A stretch of DNA of 31,318 bases from a virus, in the IMG/VR virus record IMGVR_UViG_3300046616_000107, positions 1 to 31,318 of that record; one strand, written 5' to 3'. This document shows, piece after piece, positions 17,789 through 31,303 of this stretch. A program made the translations under genes and the position numbers. The notes below the pieces were generated by a model that made no database searches, was not told the origin of the DNA, and saw nothing but the letters and a program-made list of their open reading frames with translations. Each line of letters begins with the position of its first letter. Position 1 is the first letter of the stretch.

Positions 17789-19282
17789 TCAAAATCCTCT
17801 TGCCTCATCAGCATCAGTTTCAAGCTCATTAAAAGCTCCTGATCCGGCATCCATTAAATCATCATGCGGCTCATCCGGCTGGTTGTGGATGTGGCTCAAA
17901 TAAAGTCCGTTCCATGATCCGAGTAAAACAAGAATCTCACCGTTCTCCGCTGCCTTTGCCTGCGGCTTTGCTCTTTCGAACTTATCTCCGCGCGGCTTGA
18001 TAAAATCTACGTCTCGGATCCCGAGTTGCCGGATCTCTTTCTCCAGCTTGAAAGCTTCGCGCTTTGCCGCCGATCCACCCTCTAATTCAACCCTGAGCAT
18101 GAATCTGGCTCTGAAAGTCTTGGCAAACTGGAGATCCGTTTGAGCCATCTGTTTGAGCAGCCGGTCAACCTCAGCCGGTGGAGCCTGGATCTGAAAGGCA
18201 TCGAGGATCACAAACTGTTTTGTTTTCCGTGAATAACCGATCATGACTCTGGCTGAATAATCAGGATCTTTATTGCCACCAGATGTCTTGGAGCCTTTGA
18301 TCTCTTTTTCGGTGGCTGCCAGATCCCAAAATGAGCAGATCACATCAATTGGCGGCAGATCCTCTCTGGAGACGATTTCAAACCATGAGCGGTTAAAGAA
18401 TTTGCCTGCTTCAAGTCTGACTTTCCAATTGCCGTTAAGGAGCCGCATCCGGTCAACCAGCGGCAGAGCATACAAATTACCTTTATAGGCTTTATCGACT
18501 TTCAGCAGTTCCTGATTGTCATCGACCAGCGACGGCACAAACGTGATGGATTTGGCAAAATCTTCACCAAGCTCCTCAACCAGCTCCGGAAACTGGTCAG
18601 CTAATTCCTCTTTGGTGTCGCTCCAGATCAGCTCTCCGTTGATCCGAACAAACCAGCGGATCACTCCTGCTCTCTCCTCGATTGGAAAGCCGGTTTCCTC
18701 ATCAATCCACCAGGCAATTAGTTTTGCTACCCAGGAATCCGCATCCGGATTGCAAGTGGCTCTGATGTAAGGTTTCACGCCGGACATGGATCTGTTGCGG
18801 CTGAGCATGTACCAGAATTGACGCTCCAAAAAATGAGTCAGCTCATCAAAGCCGATCATGGCAATTTGTGAGCCCTGCCAATCGCTCAGATTTTTTTCAT
18901 ACTGGAGATGGGCAAACTGGATAATTGCGCCGGACGGAAAAGTCCATTTGTGATCCGTTTGGTTTGGTTTAGCTCTGACCAGCGGAAAAAGCTTGTTTGA
19001 TTCATCCCACAAGCCGCCTGGATTTGTGATCTGAGGAGATGTCCGTCTAAAAATGACGGCTCCGAATTCCGGATTATATGTGTGGCGCATGGACTCCAAT
19101 AGGAGAGTCCAACTTTTTCCACCACCGGCACCACCACCAAAAATAAGGATGTCCGCGTTTGAAGAAAGTGCCAACTCTTGTTTAGGCTGAGGTCTGATAG
19201 CTTTTCTAGCTCCCGTCATAATCTTTCCAGAAAGTGCCAACTCCTGCTTAGGCTGCGGTTTTATAACTCTCCTAGCTAACAT
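17789..19282 (-). CDS. terL: Terminase large subunit
   Basis: The packaging motor ATPase/nuclease. Counting from ATG 19282 (497 residues): Walker A GGGAGGGKS at 49-57, IFRRTSP (the arginine-containing segment) further on, Walker B MIGFDELTHF, then nuclease motifs FWDLAA (first Asp), and the C-terminal HDDLMDAGSGAF with the last catalytic Asp. The start is uncertain: ATG 19351 has no ribosome binding site, ATG 19282 follows AAGGGGAGCA, and ATG 19219 follows GGAAAG. The N terminus contains two copies of (V/A)I(K/R)PQPKQELALS. Only the second directly precedes the P-loop and corresponds to the normal adenine-binding Q motif. Overlap with TerS has been lost here compared with typical coupling. 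It acts with TerS and the portal. Confidence 0.95.
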   Translation of the reverse strand: MLARRVIKPQPKQELALSGKIMTGARKAIRPQPKQELALSSNADILIFGGGAGGGKSWTLLLESMRHTYNPEFGAVIFRRTSPQITNPGGLWDESNKLFPLVRAKPNQTDHKWTFPSGAIIQFAHLQYEKNLSDWQGSQIAMIGFDELTHFLERQFWYMLSRNRSMSGVKPYIRATCNPDADSWVAKLIAWWIDEETGFPIEERAGVIRWFVRINGELIWSDTKEELADQFPELVEELGEDFAKSITFVPSLVDDNQELLKVDKAYKGNLYALPLVDRMRLLNGNWKVRLEAGKFFNRSWFEIVSREDLPPIDVICSFWDLAATEKEIKGSKTSGGNKDPDYSARVMIGYSRKTKQFVILDAFQIQAPPAEVDRLLKQMAQTDLQFAKTFRARFMLRVELEGGSAAKREAFKLEKEIRQLGIRDVDFIKPRGDKFERAKPQAKAAENGEILVLLGSWNGLYLSHIHNQPDEPHDDLMDAGSGAFNELETDADEARGF

Positions 19283-19410
19283 TGCTCCCCTTAACAAAGT
19301 GCCGTTTTCCTTTGTCCACTGCTTTCCGCTCCTCTCAAAACCCTGCTCCATTCACCGAAAATCTAAATATTTCCAAGAGCAATCTCTTGCTTTGGCTGAG
19401 GCTTGATCAT
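19164..19410 (-). repeat. Three diverged copies of the TerL Q-motif segment
   Basis: Copies at about 19164-19219, 19230-19282 and 19363-19410, read on the minus strand. They encode IRPQPKQELALS, IKPQPKQELALS and IKPQPKQEIALG. The first two are in the TerL frame; the third is in another frame (MIKPQPKQEIALGNI then TAG). The copies share GAGTTGGCACTTTCT in two cases and otherwise differ mostly at synonymous positions. Confidence 0.85.
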
Positions 19411-19426: not shown

Positions 19427-19483
19427 TCAGTGATCCGTTTTCTTTGGATCTTTGGTGTGCCGCTCATGGTTTTTATCAGGCAT
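19427..19483 (-). other. Short open frame at the expected TerL coupling point
   Basis: An 18-codon frame (MPDKNHERHTKDPKKTDH) whose ATG overlaps the TerS stop by 8 bases (ATGCCTGA), the arrangement expected for a coupled TerL start. It stops at TGA 19427. One base further on, the +1 frame continues as ERIKKRMIKPQPKQEIALG. It looks like the remains of an older TerL N terminus, or a leader peptide. It is not a normal gene in its present form. Confidence 0.4.
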
Positions 19484-20177
19484 CGCGTCCGTTTTCGGGA
19501 ATGTAAAAGATGACATCAGCACCGTCATCAATGGTGGCATCAATTTTCTGAGTGAAAAGTTTGTGATGTTTGCCAAGCAGCTCCAGAGCCTCGGTGGCTG
19601 AATAGAGCTCAAATTCAACTTCCTCGGTCAAGATCTCAGTGGACATCATTCCGGCTGCTCCAAGTTCATCTAAAATATCCTGCACATCAGACGGTACAGA
19701 TTCCGGCAGATCTACGATCTCGGTTTTTTTCTCTCTGACCATCCTTTTGGTTTTGATTTTCTTAACCAGATGGATGGATCCGTTGGCTCTGGCTTTTGCC
19801 AGGTCGAAAATGATGATATTCGGATTTTTCCCCTCGTCATCATCAGCCAGCACGTCATCAATCGAGCCTCGGGCAATTGATGCAAGCCTTGCCAGATTTT
19901 CTCTGGCTGACATTGCCACTTCATCCATGACGGCATCAATATAAGCCTTGACGTGCGGTCTCCGGATGATCTTATATCCGGCTGAGGTCATAGTGGACTG
20001 ATTGCCGGTATAGCCAGCCAGCTTGGCTGCTCTGGTCGCGTTCATCTGAGCCTCACCAAGATAAAAATCCGCAAAGGTTTTTTCCTTTGCGGTCAAAAGC
20101 TTTCTGAGCTCTGCCGGATCCGGTGGAGATTCAAGATCATCCTCAAACTCATCAAAATTTTCTTGATTTTCACTCAT
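19476..20177 (-). CDS. terS: Terminase small subunit
   Basis: A 233-residue protein matching the Terminase_2-type small subunit. The N-terminal acidic tail (1-24) is followed by LTAKEKTFADFYLGEAQMNATRAAKLAGYTGNQ (HTH DNA-binding region, about 28-62), then IIRRPHVKAYIDAVMDE. The central part is an oligomerisation helix region, and the C-terminal ATEALELLGKHHKLFTQKI is typical of the family and is thought to contact TerL. It recognises viral DNA for packaging. Its start overlaps the upstream membrane protein by 8 bases; its stop overlaps the short frame at 19427-19483. Confidence 0.9.
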   Translation of the reverse strand: MSENQENFDEFEDDLESPPDPAELRKLLTAKEKTFADFYLGEAQMNATRAAKLAGYTGNQSTMTSAGYKIIRRPHVKAYIDAVMDEVAMSARENLARLASIARGSIDDVLADDDEGKNPNIIIFDLAKARANGSIHLVKKIKTKRMVREKKTEIVDLPESVPSDVQDILDELGAAGMMSTEILTEEVEFELYSATEALELLGKHHKLFTQKIDATIDDGADVIFYIPENGRDA

Positions 20178-20514
20178 CTAAAAACTTTGCCTGGATCTTG
20201 TCGAATTCAGCCGCCTGCCAGAGTTGGCTGATCTCCTGACGCTCTTGATCCGTGAATTTTCTGCCAGCCGCAAAAGCATTAATCATCATGATTGCCACCT
20301 TGGCTCTGGCATCCTGCACATTTTCTCTGCTCTGGTGATAAGCATCAGCATCCTTGTAGTGCTGCAAAAGGCTTTCTTTGGTTGATTCTGCCAGCGGCAG
20401 AGCTTTCATGGTGTAATAATTGAAAACCAGTCCACCAAGCTGCATGACCATGATCACCAGCAGCAACCATCTCCAAAACTGTCTTTTCCAGCCAGTTAAA
20501 GTGTCAAAAGGCAT
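20170..20514 (-). CDS. Single-pass membrane protein between receiver and TerS
   Basis: A 114-residue protein with one hydrophobic segment (RWLLLVIMVMQLGGLVFNYY, about 15-34) and a hydrophilic helical C-terminal domain (about 45-114; FTDQERQEISQLWQAAEFDKIQAKF). It overlaps the receiver gene by 11 bases (ATGCCTTTTGA) and TerS by 8 bases, so the three are translationally coupled. The N-terminal KRQFWR before the membrane segment would favour an N-in topology with the C-terminal domain in the periplasm. It could be an antiholin or exclusion protein, or a partner of the receiver. No family recognised. Confidence 0.7.
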   Translation of the reverse strand: MPFDTLTGWKRQFWRWLLLVIMVMQLGGLVFNYYTMKALPLAESTKESLLQHYKDADAYHQSRENVQDARAKVAIMMINAFAAGRKFTDQERQEISQLWQAAEFDKIQAKFLDE

Positions 20515-20992
20515 CCTTTTTCTCTCCTGAATAATTTGTTTTAGCGTTTTGCAGCTCCTCTGACTGCTTTTCTCTTGATTCTAACCATGCAGAAACTTTG
20601 TCATAGAGCTCAGGTGTGTCATCCGGTTTGTGAAAAATTTTCTCCACCTGAGTCTTGGCAGCCACACGCTCAGTGGCTCCACCGGCTGACTGGTGATGTG
20701 CGGTATAAAATGCCAGCGGCACCGGCTCCGAATTATAAGCCTGTTCATTGATCCGGATCTGCTCAGCAATGGTCAGACCGTCGAGCACCGGCAGAGAGAG
20801 GTCGAGCAGCACCGCTTTGATCTTACCGGCTCTGAGCTTCAAAAAATCCAGCAGAGCCGCTCCGGTGGTAAAGCCTGCAACGGATTCGCCTTGATCAATA
20901 AAGATCCATGCGGTCAGATGCAGATTGCTCTCATCGTCATCACAGATCACAATCCATTTTTTTTCCGGTTTTTGTATAAGTTGATCAGCCAT
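20504..20992 (-). CDS. Stand-alone response regulator receiver (CheY-like)
   Basis: A 162-residue protein with a full receiver domain (about 11-140): beta1 followed by the acidic pair within D18-D19-D20, the phosphoacceptor Asp D64 in VLLDLSLPVLDG, T97 in LAFYTAHH and the conserved K122 in FHKPDD. All residues needed for phosphorylation are present, so it should be able to accept phosphate from a host histidine kinase or small donors. There is no output domain; the last 20 residues are hydrophilic. AGAGGGAAA precedes ATG 20992. It sits between lysis-type genes and the terminase and overlaps the membrane protein gene downstream. Receivers are rare in phage structural operons. Function here is unknown. 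Confidence 0.9.
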   Translation of the reverse strand: MADQLIQKPEKKWIVICDDDESNLHLTAWIFIDQGESVAGFTTGAALLDFLKLRAGKIKAVLLDLSLPVLDGLTIAEQIRINEQAYNSEPVPLAFYTAHHQSAGGATERVAAKTQVEKIFHKPDDTPELYDKVSAWLESREKQSEELQNAKTNYSGEKKDAF

Positions 20993-21003: not shown

Positions 21004-21534
21004 TTATTGATTGCCAGTGGTGTGCTGGTCAATGCCTAATTTGTTCTCCAGTTCCATGATCTCAGCTCTCAATCTAAATTCAGTCTTGGCTCTTGCCTCA
21101 TCCTCAAGCTCCATCTCCTCAATAATCTTGACCTTTGCCAGAACTAAAGCAGACTTGGTGGAGATCTCCAGCTCTTTGCTTGAAATTTCCAGCTCTTTGG
21201 CTGCCAGCTCAGCCGTGTGTTTTAATTCCTGAGCTGCAAGCTCAGCTGTATGCTTTAATTTCTGATCACTGAGCTCATCCTTTTGATCCTGGATCTTTTT
21301 GCCTCGGGTATCAGCCAGAGCAGATGCCTCAGCCAAAGCCTTGGTCAGCTCTTCACGGTTTTTGGAGTGCCAGAAAAAGTAAATAATGGCAACAATCAAA
21401 CCAATGGCAGCCACTGGCGTAGCAATGGAGCCAATAGCGTCAATAATCACCTTTGCCTGAGTTGGCTCCGGTGTTGATTGCACTATTGGCGGCAGTTGCT
21501 GCAAGACAAAAATGAGAGATTGTGTCAGTTTCAT
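21004..21534 (-). CDS. Membrane-anchored coiled-coil protein
   Basis: About 176 residues from ATG 21534 (a TTG at 21579 and ATG 21543 are also in frame; none has a clear ribosome binding site). An N-terminal hydrophobic stretch (SLIFVLQQLPPIV) and a transmembrane helix (SIATPVAAIGLIVAIIYFFW) are followed by a long charged coiled coil with tandem heptad-like repeats: LKHTAELAAQE, LKHTAELAAKE, LEISSKE, LEISTKS. It lies between the spanin-like pair and the receiver. The two hydrophobic N-terminal segments would fit a holin-like or membrane scaffold role, but the coiled coil is long for a holin. Confidence 0.7.
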   Translation of the reverse strand: MKLTQSLIFVLQQLPPIVQSTPEPTQAKVIIDAIGSIATPVAAIGLIVAIIYFFWHSKNREELTKALAEASALADTRGKKIQDQKDELSDQKLKHTAELAAQELKHTAELAAKELEISSKELEISTKSALVLAKVKIIEEMELEDEARAKTEFRLRAEIMELENKLGIDQHTTGNQ

Positions 21535-21602
21535 GAAAACCATAGATTTTGAGAGCCATCCCGTTTGTTCAATATGCAAGGATCCGTGGTGCGTTAATCA
21601 GA

Positions 21603-22007
21603 TCAGCATCTTTTAATCTTGATCAGACCGAATAAAAAGCTGGTGGTGCTGCATTGCTTTTCGAGACGCTGGATAAGCTTTTCTGCCGTATCCAACATCG
21701 ATTTGAGCCGCGTGATCTCCTTTTGATCCAGCTCCAGCAGCTCATCACGTTTCATGATTTGATCCAGCCTGTCCTCAGCCAGATCTTTGCACGCTCTGAC
21801 CTCAGCCAGTGACTGATCCAGCATCTGACTGCACTCAGCCAGATCACTTGCGGCATTTGGAGTCTGATTGGTGATCTTGGCACCATTTTGCTCTGGTTTT
21901 GCTCCAGTTGGATTCTCTTGTGCTGCTGTCAGTATTGAGCACAGAATTGAAATTGCTGCCACTAGTAGCAGCCTTGTTGTCAGCTGTTTTAATTTGTTCA
22001 TTTGCAT
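21603..22007 (-). CDS. Putative outer spanin partner (overlapping gene)
   Basis: A 134-residue protein starting at ATG 22007, with GAGGAG 10 bases upstream; the frame is open to 22040. It has an N-terminal signal sequence (KQLTTRLLLVAAISILCSILTAAQ) with a possible signal peptidase I site near TAA/Q. The Cys at residue 23 does not fit a good lipobox (S-I-L-C), so lipidation is doubtful. A helical coiled-coil domain follows, with cysteine pairs (AECSQML, VRACKDL, EKQC). Its first 164 bases lie inside the 3' part of the 124-residue membrane protein gene in another frame, the arrangement seen for Rz/Rz1 spanins. It is longer and less Pro-rich than classical Rz1. Confidence 0.55.
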   Translation of the reverse strand: MQMNKLKQLTTRLLLVAAISILCSILTAAQENPTGAKPEQNGAKITNQTPNAASDLAECSQMLDQSLAEVRACKDLAEDRLDQIMKRDELLELDQKEITRLKSMLDTAEKLIQRLEKQCSTTSFLFGLIKIKRC

Positions 22008-22218
22008 TTTGTCTTTGCTCCTCAATTTGTTTGACTTCACCTTTGCCCTGCTGGATCTCCTGCTTTAGCTCCTCATTTTTCTTTTGCCAGATTTTTCCGT
22101 TGCATGAGTCCACAAAACCGAGGATCCAGAGAAATAGGATCACAGCCAAAACTCCAGCCGTGATCCAGTACCAATTTGCCAGAAAAAAGGCTCTGGCTGC
22201 CTGCCGTGTGATCTGCAT
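21844..22218 (-). CDS. Putative inner spanin (Rz-like)
   Basis: A 124-residue protein with an N-terminal transmembrane segment (FFLANWYWITAGVLAVILFLWILGFV, about 11-36) and a periplasmic coiled coil (KKNEELKQEIQQGKGEVKQIEEQRQNANEQ, about 46-75), ending in a basic, Cys-containing tail. This N-in/C-out layout matches inner-membrane spanins, which fuse inner and outer membranes at the last step of lysis in Gram-negative hosts. The overlapping gene in another frame encodes a secreted partner. It begins one base after the stop of the secreted 120-residue gene. No strong ribosome binding site is seen. Confidence 0.6.
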   Translation of the reverse strand: MQITRQAARAFFLANWYWITAGVLAVILFLWILGFVDSCNGKIWQKKNEELKQEIQQGKGEVKQIEEQRQNANEQIKTADNKAATSGSNFNSVLNTDSSTRESNWSKTRAKWCQDHQSDSKCRK

Positions 22219-22219
22219 C

Positions 22220-22582
22220 TTATTGATAAATGTGGATCACCAGATCATTGATAATGCCGCCTGCTCCGAGAATCGCATCAGCGGCGGCTCCGGCTGAATT
22301 GTAGGTTTTGATCGTCAGCACGTTGGCAGATGTTCTTTGGACCGTGATGACAGAACCGTCAGCCAGCACATTATTGGTGAAAAAGGCTGATGTGTTGGCA
22401 GGAAAGAGACCTGTTTTAGTGACGGTATAAACTCCGACACCGGGTCTGGCAATCACCGGAGCCGCTGGTTTGAGATTCGATCCGGCATTGTCATGTTTGA
22501 CGGTTGCCACCGGAGCAGTTGTGCCGGTCTGCACTAAGCCGATGGTGATCAATAAAAACGGTAAAAAGTTGCGCTTATACAT
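22220..22582 (-). CDS. Short secreted protein with fibre-like beta domain
   Basis: A 120-residue protein from ATG 22582, preceded by GAGGAGAATTTTCAATT; an upstream open stretch to 22696 overlaps the lysozyme gene and lacks a ribosome binding site. The first 22 residues form a signal peptide (KRN, then FLPFLLITIGLVQTGTTA). The mature protein is Ala/Val/Thr rich; its C terminus (ANTSAFFTNNVLADGSVITVQRTSANVLTIKTYNSAG ... IINDLVIHIYQ) has the strand pattern of phage fibre end-domains. A secreted copy of such a domain next to lysis genes is odd. Possible roles are masking of receptors after infection or a periplasmic lysis factor; both are speculative. Confidence 0.7.
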   Translation of the reverse strand: MYKRNFLPFLLITIGLVQTGTTAPVATVKHDNAGSNLKPAAPVIARPGVGVYTVTKTGLFPANTSAFFTNNVLADGSVITVQRTSANVLTIKTYNSAGAAADAILGAGGIINDLVIHIYQ

Positions 22583-22604
22583 AATTGAAAATTCTCCTCG
22601 AAAA

Positions 22605-23876
22605 CTAAAAAATTGATTGGATCCAGCTCTTTTTCTCCTGCACAGCATCAGCTCCAGCCGGTTGATTGAGCTTGATGTCATTTTTGGTGGTGTCACCGTT
22701 GATCCACATCCGCACGATAAAGCTGATCTGGATCAAGATCATTTTGATTGTTCTGTAAATTACATAAGCAATCAGCAGCCAGATGAGATAAGGCAGGATA
22801 AACATCAACATCTGGAGAAAAACTTGCAGCAGCTCAGACCAGTTGATCTGTCCGTCTGCTCCGATGGATTTGATACCGGCGATCAGACCGGAAAAGGACG
22901 GCACACCGAGTCCGAGAGCCGTGAGCCAAAAATTGACCTTTGAACCGATACCCTCAGCCGGTGGAGCGTTCATGGTTTTTGTCTCGGGATCCTGAGCCGG
23001 TGGATTAGGATCTTTATTGCCGGAGCCGTCATTCAAATTGATGATATTTTCAGCCTGCTGAGTTTTGCCGTCACCACCATCCTGCTCCTGATCGGCGGCT
23101 GGCTGCTCATCCGCTTGCTCCTCAGCCGGTTGCTCCGGCTCATCCATTTCCTGATCGGTAAAATCCGACGATTGAGCAATCAGTTGCTCTCTGGCATCCA
23201 TAATGACCTCATCAGGATCCTCAGTGCCAAGATCGACCTGGAGAGCTGCCGTCATAACTTTCTGGCTGGCTCCGGACTGAGCTTTCAGATCCTGGAGCAG
23301 CGGCTTGGCAAACTTCATGACCTGGAGAGCATTGAAAACATAATTCGGATCGTAGGTTTTGCCGGTTGGTTTGCCGGTATTCCAGATCCGGAGACAAGCC
23401 TCATAATTTTTATTGGTGAGAAATTGTCCGGTAACCAGCTCCATGAGCTTGATCGTATAGATCAGATGTTTGTCCGGATCTCTGAGATCCGAGATCGTGC
23501 CTTTGAGATTGTTGATCATGTGCCAGCCCATGATCTGACTTAAACCGTAACTGGTGGCAAGTGCTTTCAGAGCAGCCTCGCTGGCACCCATGATCTGCTG
23601 GCGGCTTACTCCTGAATAATTATTTTTGGTTTTGCCGCCGACAATGCACCAGCCTTTGTCTCTGAGATCTTTGAGATCCTGAAACACTCCGGACTCAAAT
23701 CTGGTGGCTGATTCGATGATCTTGCCGCCTCGGACTCCAGCCTCAACTCCGATTTTTCCAGCCAGAAAAGCCGGATCAATATTGGTGCCTGCAACGGCTG
23801 CGAGAATTTTTCTGCCAACTTGATCAACCACCATCCGCGCCTTGCTTTTGGCTTGGTTTTCCGTATATTTTGCCAT
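22605..23876 (-). CDS. Putative endolysin, lysozyme fold with C-terminal membrane region
   Basis: A 423-residue protein. Residues 1-200 resemble lysozyme-fold muramidases / transglycosylases: FLAGKIGVEAG (candidate catalytic E45), ESATRFESG (E55, E61), ATSYGLSQIMGW (107-118, like the S-x-G-x-x-Q-I-M-G motif of the N-acetylmuramidase/SLT families) and RIWNTGKPTGKTYDPNYV (163-180). Residues 240-310 are an acidic, Gln/Pro-rich linker. Residues 315-395 contain two or three hydrophobic segments (FWLTALGLGVPSFSGLIAG; FLQMLMFILPYLIWLLIAY; IKMILIQISFIV). The C terminus is hydrophilic. AAGGAGCAG precedes ATG 23876. A membrane-anchored endolysin is likely; a virion-associated enzyme is the alternative. 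There is no N-terminal signal or SAR sequence. Confidence 0.75.
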   Translation of the reverse strand: MAKYTENQAKSKARMVVDQVGRKILAAVAGTNIDPAFLAGKIGVEAGVRGGKIIESATRFESGVFQDLKDLRDKGWCIVGGKTKNNYSGVSRQQIMGASEAALKALATSYGLSQIMGWHMINNLKGTISDLRDPDKHLIYTIKLMELVTGQFLTNKNYEACLRIWNTGKPTGKTYDPNYVFNALQVMKFAKPLLQDLKAQSGASQKVMTAALQVDLGTEDPDEVIMDAREQLIAQSSDFTDQEMDEPEQPAEEQADEQPAADQEQDGGDGKTQQAENIINLNDGSGNKDPNPPAQDPETKTMNAPPAEGIGSKVNFWLTALGLGVPSFSGLIAGIKSIGADGQINWSELLQVFLQMLMFILPYLIWLLIAYVIYRTIKMILIQISFIVRMWINGDTTKNDIKLNQPAGADAVQEKKSWIQSIF

Positions 23877-23895: not shown

Positions 23896-23929
23896 AAAAA
23901 ACTCAAGCCAGAGGATCCGGCTTGAGTTT
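23896..23929 (-). terminator. Intrinsic terminator between accessory block and lysis genes
   Basis: A perfect 11-bp stem: AAACTCAAGCC (23899-23909) and GGCTTGAGTTT (23919-23929), with a 9-base loop. Six T follow on the minus strand. It lies after the winged-helix gene and before the endolysin gene, so it marks the end of the rightward block. Confidence 0.9.
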
Positions 23930-23971: not shown

Positions 23972-24457
23972 TTAGTTCAAAAAGTAGAGATTGTCTCGAT
24001 AAGTCTCAGCCACCGGAGATTCCATTTTTCTGGCAATTTTTTGTTTAACCATCAGATTTAGGATTGATCTGACATCAACAGTGGAGAGATCGGTCTCCTC
24101 AGCAATCTCCTCAACTGTGGAACATGAATGATGCCGCATGGCTTTAAGGATCAGCTTTACCTTTTCTTCATCAGAGCTGGAGCCCGAAACTCTCACCTTG
24201 GTCATCGTTTGATCTAATAGCTCCTTATGCTCAGGGAAAACTCTTTTGAGATGCTGCAAAAGCTGGCTCAAATATAAAGCTCTGCCTTTCTGGCTGCCGT
24301 CTCTCTGGTAAAGCCAGAATCTGCTGGAGAGGTGCTCCTCATCATAAATCTCAGCCGGTGGTGGTGACGGCTCAGGTTTTTCTACTGGCTGATTGTTTGC
24401 CGGATTTGGGATCGATGCAGCGGCTGGCACTGCATCATTTAATTTATGATTTTGCAT
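23972..24457 (-). CDS. Protein with C-terminal winged-helix domain
   Basis: A 161-residue protein. Residues 1-40 are Pro/Ala rich and probably disordered. Residues 45-90 are helical (FWLYQRDGSQKGRALYLSQLLQHLKRVFPEHKELL). The C-terminal 60 residues look like a winged helix-turn-helix: KLILKAMRHH, STVEEIAEETDLSTVDVRSILNLMVKQ and the wing KIARKMES..TYRDNLYFL. It may be a transcription regulator of the late genes since it is the last gene before the terminator; that is inference. It overlaps the preceding gene by 14 bases. No strong ribosome binding site is visible. Confidence 0.75.
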   Translation of the reverse strand: MQNHKLNDAVPAAASIPNPANNQPVEKPEPSPPPAEIYDEEHLSSRFWLYQRDGSQKGRALYLSQLLQHLKRVFPEHKELLDQTMTKVRVSGSSSDEEKVKLILKAMRHHSCSTVEEIAEETDLSTVDVRSILNLMVKQKIARKMESPVAETYRDNLYFLN

Positions 24458-28832: not shown

Positions 28833-29175
28833 CTTCGATCTCCAGCTTATTTGTCAGATAGTTGTAAATTTCAGGATAGGCAGCGGAAAAATCAGCAGCC
28901 AATCCCTCGGAGTGAGGATCATCCACCATTTCGATCATGTGTTTGACCTCATCCACAGGAAAGCCGCCGCATGGCTCCACATCCGTCCTTTGACCATTCA
29001 GAAAGTCTCTGAAAGCATCAGCTCCGTCTCTGTCCACAACTAAGCTGACATTGGTTTTAGCTTTATGATCTTTTGAATCGATCAATAGCCGTCCGTCATA
29101 AAAACCGCTGATCTCTATCTGAGATTCTTCATTTTTTAGGAGCAGTGTATTGGCTCCGTTTTTCTCGATTTTCAT
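28819..29175 (-). CDS. Hypothetical 118-residue protein
   Basis: AAGGAGTAAAAAA precedes ATG 29175, which overlaps the stop of the nuclease gene (ATGA). The N-terminal half is beta-like (NTLLLKNEESQIEISGFYDGRLLIDSKD, NVSLVVDRDGADAFRDFLNG); the C-terminal half is acidic and helical. No motif recognised. Confidence 0.65.
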   Translation of the reverse strand: MKIEKNGANTLLLKNEESQIEISGFYDGRLLIDSKDHKAKTNVSLVVDRDGADAFRDFLNGQRTDVEPCGGFPVDEVKHMIEMVDDPHSEGLAADFSAAYPEIYNYLTNKLEIEDEFN

Positions 29176-29633
29176 TTTTTTACTCCTTGAAAATTAAAAT
29201 TTTGTTTGATCCATCGGCTGATTGGTTTGAGTTTTTCAATGAGCTCCAGCCACTGCTTTTCAAAACTCTCGAAACTATCGGCATTGATCACGAAAGCACC
29301 GGCTCTCAGGAGCTCCTGCTGCCGGAGCAGTTGATCCGGTGATGGTGTGCCGTCTTTGATCTTTGTTTCGATATAAACTGCAAAACCGAAAGCCAGAGCC
29401 AGCAGATCCGGAGTGCCTTTTTTGCAGAGATAGATCCACCGGTTATAGTGAGTGACGGCTCCGGTTTTCTTGCTGGTGTAATTGGTTTTGAGATTGATCT
29501 TGCCCGAGTTGAGCCGGTCGATCTCAAAGCCGGATCCGGAGACGTATTGCCGGATCTGCTTTGAAATAGTGCTCTCGGATTTATCATCGGAGAGCTGTTT
29601 TTTATAATCGGTGATGCTCATCTTTTCGGTCAT
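29172..29633 (-). CDS. VRR-NUC-like nuclease
   Basis: A 153-residue protein from ATG 29633 (AAGGAGTTTT upstream; an upstream start at 29693 would overlap the cupin gene). Residues 70-120 carry the VRR-NUC signature of the PD-(D/E)xK nuclease fold: KKGTPDLLAL with D76, YIETKIKDG with E89-x-K91, SPDQLLRQQELLRAGAFV with Q101 and the G-A motif. Such stand-alone domains in phages are thought to act on branched or single-stranded DNA intermediates, such as Holliday junctions or replication forks. The N-terminal 60 residues are helical and basic. All catalytic residues are present. Confidence 0.85.
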   Translation of the reverse strand: MTEKMSITDYKKQLSDDKSESTISKQIRQYVSGSGFEIDRLNSGKINLKTNYTSKKTGAVTHYNRWIYLCKKGTPDLLALAFGFAVYIETKIKDGTPSPDQLLRQQELLRAGAFVINADSFESFEKQWLELIEKLKPISRWIKQNFNFQGVKK

Positions 29634-29649
29634 AAAACTCCTTGATTTT

Positions 29650-30075
29650 TTAATCGCATGACGGACGCGAAACGCCTGGTTTAACGTATTCACGCCAATT
29701 GATAAATTTGCCGTCTTTCCAAAATCCCCAGGATCGTGACGCGCGCAAAACGATCACCAGAGTCCAGCAATCGGAGCCAGGTTCGGTCATGCGGAGCCTG
29801 TGTTTATGTTCTACCGGAAAAGAGCGGATCCAAGGTGCTTTATAAATCTTTTCTCCGGTTGGTGTTTCTTCGACATAACCGCCGCTCAGCCCAATGCTGA
29901 TAAATCTTTTCGGATGATCGTGCTGATCCAGAGCCCAGTCATCACCTACAAAATGATGGAGATAAATTCCAAGAATTTTGCCTAATCTGAGCAACGTCCA
30001 TCTATATAAATAAGTTGGGCAAATCTCATGTCCGTTGATCTCCTCTAAGCGAAATAATCTATCTAAAAATTTCAT
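29650..30075 (-). CDS. Cupin-like protein
   Basis: A 141-residue protein resembling a widespread phage family with a cupin fold. Recognisable segments are YLYRWTLLRLGKILGIYLHHFVGDD, DQHDHPKRFISIGLSGGYVEE (the HDHP motif, probably metal-binding), FPVEHKHRLRM and CWTLVIVLRASRSWGFW. The His residues H71/H73 and the later H-K-H fit the two cupin motifs. Substrate is unknown. It may modify a sugar or an oxidised metabolite. AAAGGAG precedes ATG 30075. Confidence 0.7.
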   Translation of the reverse strand: MKFLDRLFRLEEINGHEICPTYLYRWTLLRLGKILGIYLHHFVGDDWALDQHDHPKRFISIGLSGGYVEETPTGEKIYKAPWIRSFPVEHKHRLRMTEPGSDCWTLVIVLRASRSWGFWKDGKFINWREYVKPGVSRPSCD

Positions 30076-30868: not shown

Positions 30869-31303
30869 TTAAAATGGATTGTCGGTATTGGTTGCCGGTT
30901 TTATGATCTCCAGGAGTTCAAGTTTTGCGCATCTGGCTTTGCCGTCAGTATTGAAAGGCACGATCACATCAGCAAGATCGATCCAGCGGATCCGGCATCT
31001 CCAAAGCGGCTGGCTGCCGTGTTCGTTTAGGCACCATTCCTTTGTGGCAAAATTTACGCCGCAGCCACACGATTGAGTTCTTGTCGGGTTTGGGTTTTCG
31101 GTGATAAAGGATCCTGGCTCGATCTTCCATTGATCCGGCACTGGATATGTTGTGTTGCCGATGGCTTTATAAACGATCAGACCAAGCTCATCCTGCTCGA
31201 ATTTGGATAGAAAATCGGCAGCGTTGAGCAGTGCTTTCGCGCCACTCAAATTCGCGTCACTCAAATCCGCGCCACTCAAATTCGCGTCACTCAAATTCGC
31301 GCG
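30869..31303 (-). CDS. Pentapeptide-repeat protein, 5'-truncated
   Basis: The frame is open to the contig end and has no start; the first in-window residues read RANLSDANLSGADLSDANLS, i.e. A(N/D)LSx pentapeptide coils of a right-handed beta helix. The C-terminal 110 residues form a separate globular domain (GLIVYKAIG, W.IEPGSFITEN, CGCGVNFATKEWC, LADVIVPFNTDGKARCAKLELLEI). This domain is shared with pentapeptide phage proteins that I recall under the name DUF5758, although I cannot check. Function unknown. The 5' end merges with adapter sequence. Confidence 0.75.
   Translation of the reverse strand, partial: RANLSDANLSGADLSDANLSGAKALLNAADFLSKFEQDELGLIVYKAIGNTTYPVPDQWKIEPGSFITENPNPTRTQSCGCGVNFATKEWCLNEHGSQPLWRCRIRWIDLADVIVPFNTDGKARCAKLELLEIIKPATNTDNPF
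31239..31298 (-). repeat. 15-bp tandem repeat coding for pentapeptides
   Basis: Four near-identical units GCG(C/T)CACTCAAAT(T/C)C in a row (31239-31253, 31254-31268, 31269-31283, 31284-31298) plus five bases of a fifth. Each unit encodes one pentapeptide. The repeat probably stopped the assembler. Confidence 0.9.

Follow-up and report, generated by a model that had tools for sequence, protein, structure and literature searches.

The receiver gene and its neighbours in the window

A single receiver gene was revealed in the window, by which we mean the whole analyzed stretch of viral DNA with a length of 31,318 bases. It is located in a run of minus-strand genes with the following features:

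17789..19351, minus strand: TerL, terminase large subunit (PF03237, E 1.9e-27)
19476..20177, minus strand: terS, terminase small subunit (PF03592, E 6.4e-19)
20170..20514, minus strand: small protein with one transmembrane (TM) segment and a helical tail, between the receiver and terS, overlapping both neighbours
20504..20992, minus strand: receiver gene, single-domain REC, 162 aa, ATG start
21004..21579, minus strand: membrane-anchored coiled-coil protein (TM-CC) with an N-terminal hydrophobic stretch, a TM segment and a long coiled coil
21603..22040, minus strand: signal-peptide protein, outer-spanin candidate by its ORF and sequence; lipobox not canonical
21844..22218, minus strand: Rz-like inner-membrane spanin candidate with an N-terminal TM segment and a coiled coil (weak PHROG Rz-like match, E 0.0025)
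22220-22696, minus strand: small signal-peptide protein upstream of the spanin candidate
22605..23876, minus strand: candidate lysis enzyme with VEAG and YGLSQIMG motifs found by eye and a C-terminal TM segment
23899..23929, minus strand: strong intrinsic-terminator-like hairpin with a 14 bp stem, by consensus match only

The receiver belongs to the PF00072 (Response_reg) family. Its residues 14-133 match the Pfam profile with an E value of 4.4e-12 and 46.6 bits against a cut-off of 30.2, and its AlphaFold model (mean pLDDT 80.7), examined with Foldseek, has the (beta-alpha)5 fold with five strands and five helices; residues beyond approximately 137 lengthen helix alpha-5. The top PDB match to the model is the D1 receiver of GacS (TM-score 0.86 normalised by target), and the next-best solved structures are receivers too. 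Residues D18, D19, D64 and K122 line up with D12, D13, D57 and K109 of CheY, while T97, found at the end of beta-4 in the model, was taken as the equivalent of CheY T87, the automatic alignment setting T97 of the window clade one column off that position. The acidic pair, the phosphoacceptor Asp, the Thr/Ser and the Lys are all present. The only Pfam domain found in the protein was PF00072, with no output domain, and assignment to response regulators carrying one (OmpR, PhoB, NtrC etc.) was rejected, every NCBIfam score being far under its cut-off. The original prediction of an intact receiver lacking an output domain was thus correct, coordinates included, and the protein can probably be phosphorylated on D64.

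The TM-CC gene stops 11 bases upstream of the receiver start, the receiver gene overlaps that of the small TM protein by 11 bases, and the latter overlaps terS by 8 bases, which bears out the predicted coupling to a membrane protein gene and then to TerS. A membrane-anchored coiled-coil gene therefore adjoins the receiver. No holin or antiholin family in any library matched TM-CC, which bears a weak coiled-coil resemblance to Rz-like spanins. Basic residues stand right behind its TM segment and, in a topology read from the sequence and not from a predictor, its coiled coil most likely faces the cytoplasm. The window TerL is about 46% identical to a Rhizobium phage TerL; the relatives of this TerL that were checked carried no receiver, and no relatives of the window TerS were found.

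The genes upstream of TM-CC have features of a lysis cassette. The outer-spanin candidate overlaps the inner-membrane one in a different frame. The putative lysis enzyme contains the lytic-transglycosylase-like motifs VEAG and YGLSQIMG in its N-terminal stretch by eye reading only; it had no match in Pfam, PHROG or NCBIfam and none meaningful in PDB, and its AF2 model (pLDDT 43.8) was unusable. The hairpin at 23899-23929 directly precedes the run of lysis and packaging genes. Taken together, the receiver probably closes a lysis cassette whose own endolysin and spanin calls are weak. The previously proposed packaging operon is accordingly half of the context only: terS and TerL do lie downstream, but the upstream genes of the same strand form the probable lysis cassette.

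It should be mentioned that a winged-helix-like protein (weak match, E 4e-4, below cut-off), a candidate regulator of late genes, is encoded upstream of the lysis genes, at 23972-24457. At the contig edge, the product of 30869-31294 has a pentapeptide-repeat-like short start (LSDANLSGADLSDANLSGA) followed by a cysteine-containing domain. No HATPase, histidine kinase or Hpt match was detected in the window record, and PADLOC gave no meaningful match to a defence system.

Related receivers in IMG/VR records and cultured phages

Protein and motif searches of IMG/VR revealed only two relatives of the window receiver, in records IMGVR_UViG_3300022936_000002 (L002; 38% identity in the tblastn segment) and IMGVR_UViG_3300028590_000042 (L016; about 35-37%). 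All three contain the motif DGLTxAExIR and have Ile at the position of CheY Y106. In a tree with 41 host receivers they group together as a clade of their own (support 99/92), and the nearest host receiver there comes from a CqsS-like hybrid kinase (L100). The proposed structural search and phylogeny thus led to GacS D1 by fold and to a CqsS-like hybrid kinase by tree.

In all three phages the order is a TM-CC gene, the receiver and the terminase genes, TerS of L002 and L016 being assigned from position. Their TerL families are different or very distant (PF03237 in the window, PF04466 in L002 and L016). In the stretches compared, the window and L002 have in common only the receiver (E 9e-22) and TM-CC (phmmer E 6e-5), and L002 has no counterpart of the small TM protein that separates receiver and TerS in the window. 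L016 matches the window in the receiver (E 5e-19), the spanin candidate (E 2.4e-4), three genes near the capsid/tail end, one nuclease-like gene and the small TM protein, which occupies the same place (phmmer E 5.5e-6; 0/500 block shuffles, z 6.9). The TM-CC link between these two phages rests on block shuffles (3/500 and 0/300), and the TM-CC proteins of the clade have a common juxtamembrane motif, LA(D/E)(T/A)R. The 21603-22040 product weakly resembles that of L016:1187-1525 (16/500 shuffles).

A clear endolysin gene lies upstream of the receiver in the L016 phage (L094:10551-11546, PHROG_181 E 2e-37), in a position like that of the lysis-enzyme candidate of the window. The corresponding candidate in L002 (4943-6031) appears M15-like by eye; its sole match is PHROG_32486, whose function is not annotated. 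All three endolysins or candidates have a C-terminal hydrophobic TM-like segment, which is unusual for endolysins. The nuclease-like gene, at 29172-29693 in the window, matches L094:5317-5742 (E 6e-19) and is among the few common early genes.

The possibility, raised along with the original prediction, that the region is a chimeric host fragment is contradicted by these data, since receivers of the same clade recur at the same position and in the same order in L002 and L016, and the window record contains no histidine kinase or Hpt gene. Similarly, no kinase or Hpt was found in L002, L016 or the clade-B records. A scan of genome contigs with query A1 gave no match; with query A2 it gave 50 ordinary host receivers, at most 39% identical in the best segment and at most 34% near full length. 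Samples of Pseudomonadota and of Verrucomicrobiota (the latter search run without a positive control) contained nothing closer than the CqsS-like hybrid kinase. Record L004, considered as a family member, was rejected: its protein is an OmpR-type regulator, encoded on a conjugative-like element with a histidine kinase as neighbour. INPHARED contained no direct relatives of the window or L002 receiver; apart from the phages described below, matches to the L016, V22 and R9Y1 receivers there were mostly unannotated faecal contigs or host-DNA-like records.

A structure search among viral proteins led to Alteromonas phage V22, and the neighbourhoods of further matches were then studied. In total, single-domain receivers were found in seven cultured phages of Alteromonas: V22, A5, PB15, XX1924, R9Y1, R8W and H4/4 (the R9Y2 and R9Y3 receivers are near-identical to that of R9Y1). 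They span podo-, myo- and sipho-type virions and include Schitoviridae, Autographiviridae (the T7-like R8W and H4/4) and other tailed phages. In all seven a membrane-anchored coiled-coil or helical gene is located directly 5' of the receiver, frequently overlapping it, and lysis genes adjoin the pair:

V22: TM-CC, receiver, Rz-like spanin (PHROG E 7e-6), 2-TM protein
A5: TM-CC, receiver, spanin-like protein, 2-TM protein, annotated endolysin
R9Y1: TM-CC, receiver, GH108 lysozyme (E 5e-24)
PB15: CC-TM, receiver, M15 peptidase (E 3e-13), GTA_holin_3TM (E 3e-16)
XX1924: CC-TM, receiver, DUF5675, GTA_holin_3TM (E 1e-14)
R8W and H4/4: class II holin, 1-TM protein, receiver, TM protein, TerS, TerL

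In R8W (MW043865; L106, 3485-5168) and H4/4 (MF278336; L107, 2985-4644) the receiver and two membrane genes are located between the class II holin gene and terS, and the order of receiver, membrane and terminase genes is the same as in the window. Endolysin, holin or spanin genes in the run are clear in L016 and the Alteromonas phages, but weak in the window itself.

The acidic pair, phosphoacceptor, Thr/Ser and Lys are kept in the aligned cassette receivers, and reading R8W and H4/4 by eye gave DD, D, S and K. The Alteromonas receivers fall into a single, moderately supported group (91/92), and a single origin of this group and the window clade was not rejected (p-AU 0.149). Basic residues stand behind the TM segment of the coiled-coil protein in the window clade, V22, A5, R9Y1 and R8W. 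Homology of the TM-CC proteins across the two receiver groups could not be demonstrated, and in the Alteromonas proteins the TM segment is found at either the N or the C end; the pattern is for these reasons architectural.

In the window, L002, L016, R8W and H4/4, terS follows the receiver either immediately or after one small intervening gene. This position would suit a scaffold or chaperone for membrane or terminase assembly, in which the receiver serves as a protein-binding fold and phosphorylation is irrelevant, and single-domain receivers can indeed act as docking proteins. We nevertheless consider such a role unlikely: a pure scaffold would not need the phosphorylation residues that are kept, and in R9Y1, PB15, XX1924, V22 and A5 the receiver adjoins lysis genes, not terS.

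The receiver and membrane coiled-coil pattern is recurrent and not universal, since in a third receiver group (L080, L092) a partly helical TM protein adjoins the receiver and a GerE-like HTH gene stands upstream, no lysis enzyme having been identified nearby, and two more groups (L083/L090 and the degenerate L089 group) had no lysis-cassette context in the stretches examined. In L080:1828-2876, L095:5951-7348 and L096:4874-6681 the order is a GerE-like HTH gene, a 143 aa receiver, a protein with a C-terminal TM segment whose helices are cytoplasmic, and a hydrophobic holin-like protein; this group could be a split response regulator. Conserved single-domain receivers of 122-133 aa were also seen in L078, L083, L087 and L090, IMG/VR contigs without evident virion genes nearby, and L085, L088, L089, L091 and L093 encode a 120-aa receiver-like protein whose active site is broken (IND for DD, no Lys).

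A two-gene relay of this kind, in which late genes would be switched by the receiver and a second phage protein, with an HTH, working as partners, could be imagined for the window as well. It would draw on the weak GerE-like HTH matches upstream of clade-B receivers (L095:5951-6244, E 0.003; L096:6202-6681, E 0.0009) and on the winged-helix-like gene of the window. We regard it as very improbable, as the Alteromonas cassettes examined, L016 and L002 show no HTH gene adjacent to the receiver.

A possible switch in lysis control

The receiver is real and no artefact, and it is more general than the first finding implied: together with a membrane coiled-coil partner it recurs in phage lysis cassettes. 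Since late operons are compact, adjacency to lysis genes would by itself be merely suggestive. Because the phages were found via receiver similarity, their lysis context did not enter the selection; they form a small set dominated by Alteromonas phages.

A probably phosphorylatable receiver, a likely cytoplasmic coiled coil and a lysis cassette, combined with the absence of any phage kinase from the matches, point to a lysis switch gated by the host, and the most economical reading of the receiver output is the adjacent membrane protein. The receiver would be the cytoplasmic switch of a lysis-control module and would be expressed late, along with the genes for lysis and terminase. D64 would be phosphorylated by a histidine kinase or phosphotransferase of the host, none having been detected in the phage, and in one phosphorylation state the receiver would bind the cytoplasmic coiled coil of the adjacent TM-CC. 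This contact would hold back or release hole formation, so that the timing of lysis would be tied to a host signal. We infer receiver phosphorylation, TM-CC as the binding partner and the effect on lysis from the gene arrangement and the residues kept, and our confidence that lysis is gated by a host-phosphorylated receiver through its action on the membrane coiled-coil protein is evenly balanced. The wider evidence agrees well with the earlier idea of a receiver that times late functions by sensing host state, the late function in question being likely lysis and not packaging.

The strongest rival, already raised with the original prediction, is a phosphate sink or decoy, because the nearest known receivers belong to hybrid kinases: the protein would drain a host kinase or Hpt and mute an envelope-stress or quorum-sensing response during infection, and its placement in the lysis cassette would be a mere route to late expression. 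Such a role agrees with a single domain free of output and with hybrid-kinase receivers that work with Hpt (GacS D1, the CqsS-like protein) as nearest solved structures and nearest host receiver. It leaves unexplained both the recurrent membrane coiled-coil partner and the stable lysis-cassette placement in several phage families, and late expression is a poor moment to mute a host response; we judge it improbable, if worth keeping in mind.

The published annotations of the R8W and V22 genes, in the passages devoted to them (PMC8228385, PMC7289586), point instead to host adaptation, that is to PhoB-like transcription control or a signalling auxiliary metabolic gene. There is little chance, in our estimation, that this holds for the receivers described here. 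No DNA-binding domain was seen in them, those of the window, L002 and L016 reach no NCBIfam regulator cut-off, and the neighbours are lysis and packaging genes, not metabolic ones.

Both burst size and phage fitness depend on when lysis occurs, and sensory control of this timing is known in few cases, e.g., T4 lysis inhibition. The recurrence of the receiver beside a membrane coiled-coil gene in unrelated phages suggests that lysis may, in some phages, be timed or gated by a host signal. More broadly, there might be a widespread class of lysis control in which the host two-component network is wired to lysis via a phage receiver and a membrane coiled-coil protein, with host sensors timing the burst; this generalization is tentative and stands at somewhat less than even confidence. 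If true, a switch that the host can phosphorylate, placed among the lysis genes, would give phages a general means of reading the state of the host, and annotations as auxiliary metabolic genes or PhoB would need correcting. Direct testing is possible because cultured phages (R8W, H4/4, R9Y1, PB15, V22 and A5) carry the receiver.

Comparison with known systems

Several of the Alteromonas genes have been described before. In the relevant passages V22 gp30 and A5 gp11 were presented as CheY-like auxiliary genes, and the CheY-like gene of A5, V22 and P24 was placed within a shared host-recognition module (PMC7289586, PMC10579305); R8W gp48 was presented as PhoB, serving low-phosphate adaptation (PMC8228385). 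The published passages on the V22, A5 and R8W receivers do not discuss their lysis context, and the main text of the A5 paper does not mention endolysin, holin or spanin. No paper joining phage two-component genes, holin and lysis timing was found in the open literature, most subscription journals being outside this coverage.

Like V22 gp30, A5 gp11, R8W gp48 ('PhoB') and H4/4 gp44 ('PhoB'), the window receiver is an intact single-domain receiver beside a membrane coiled-coil gene and lysis genes, the latter only probable in the window. Unlike them, it falls in a separate clade, and the partner membrane proteins are not demonstrably homologous. The receivers of the hybrid kinases GacS (D1) and CqsS are the closest solved fold and the closest host receiver found, respectively, whereas the phage receiver is free-standing and about 26% identical to GacS D1.

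In T4, the cytoplasmic antiholin RIII and the periplasmic RI act on the holin T (PMC8385771). The proposed switch would resemble T4 lysis inhibition in principle only, as partners that gate a holin upon a signal, and no sequence relation is claimed. The T4 lysis-inhibition system is not known to include a receiver.

Finally, the cREC proteins of jumbo phages (Iyer et al., 2021, PMC7824862) are a divergent kind found in linkage with genes for NAD/ADPr processing. The window receiver shares with them the receiver fold and conserved Asp residues in a phage protein. Assignment to cREC was rejected, as the neighbours identified are membrane, lysis-like and terminase genes and not NAD/ADPr-processing ones; unlike cREC, the window receiver is canonical and lies in a lysis and packaging context.
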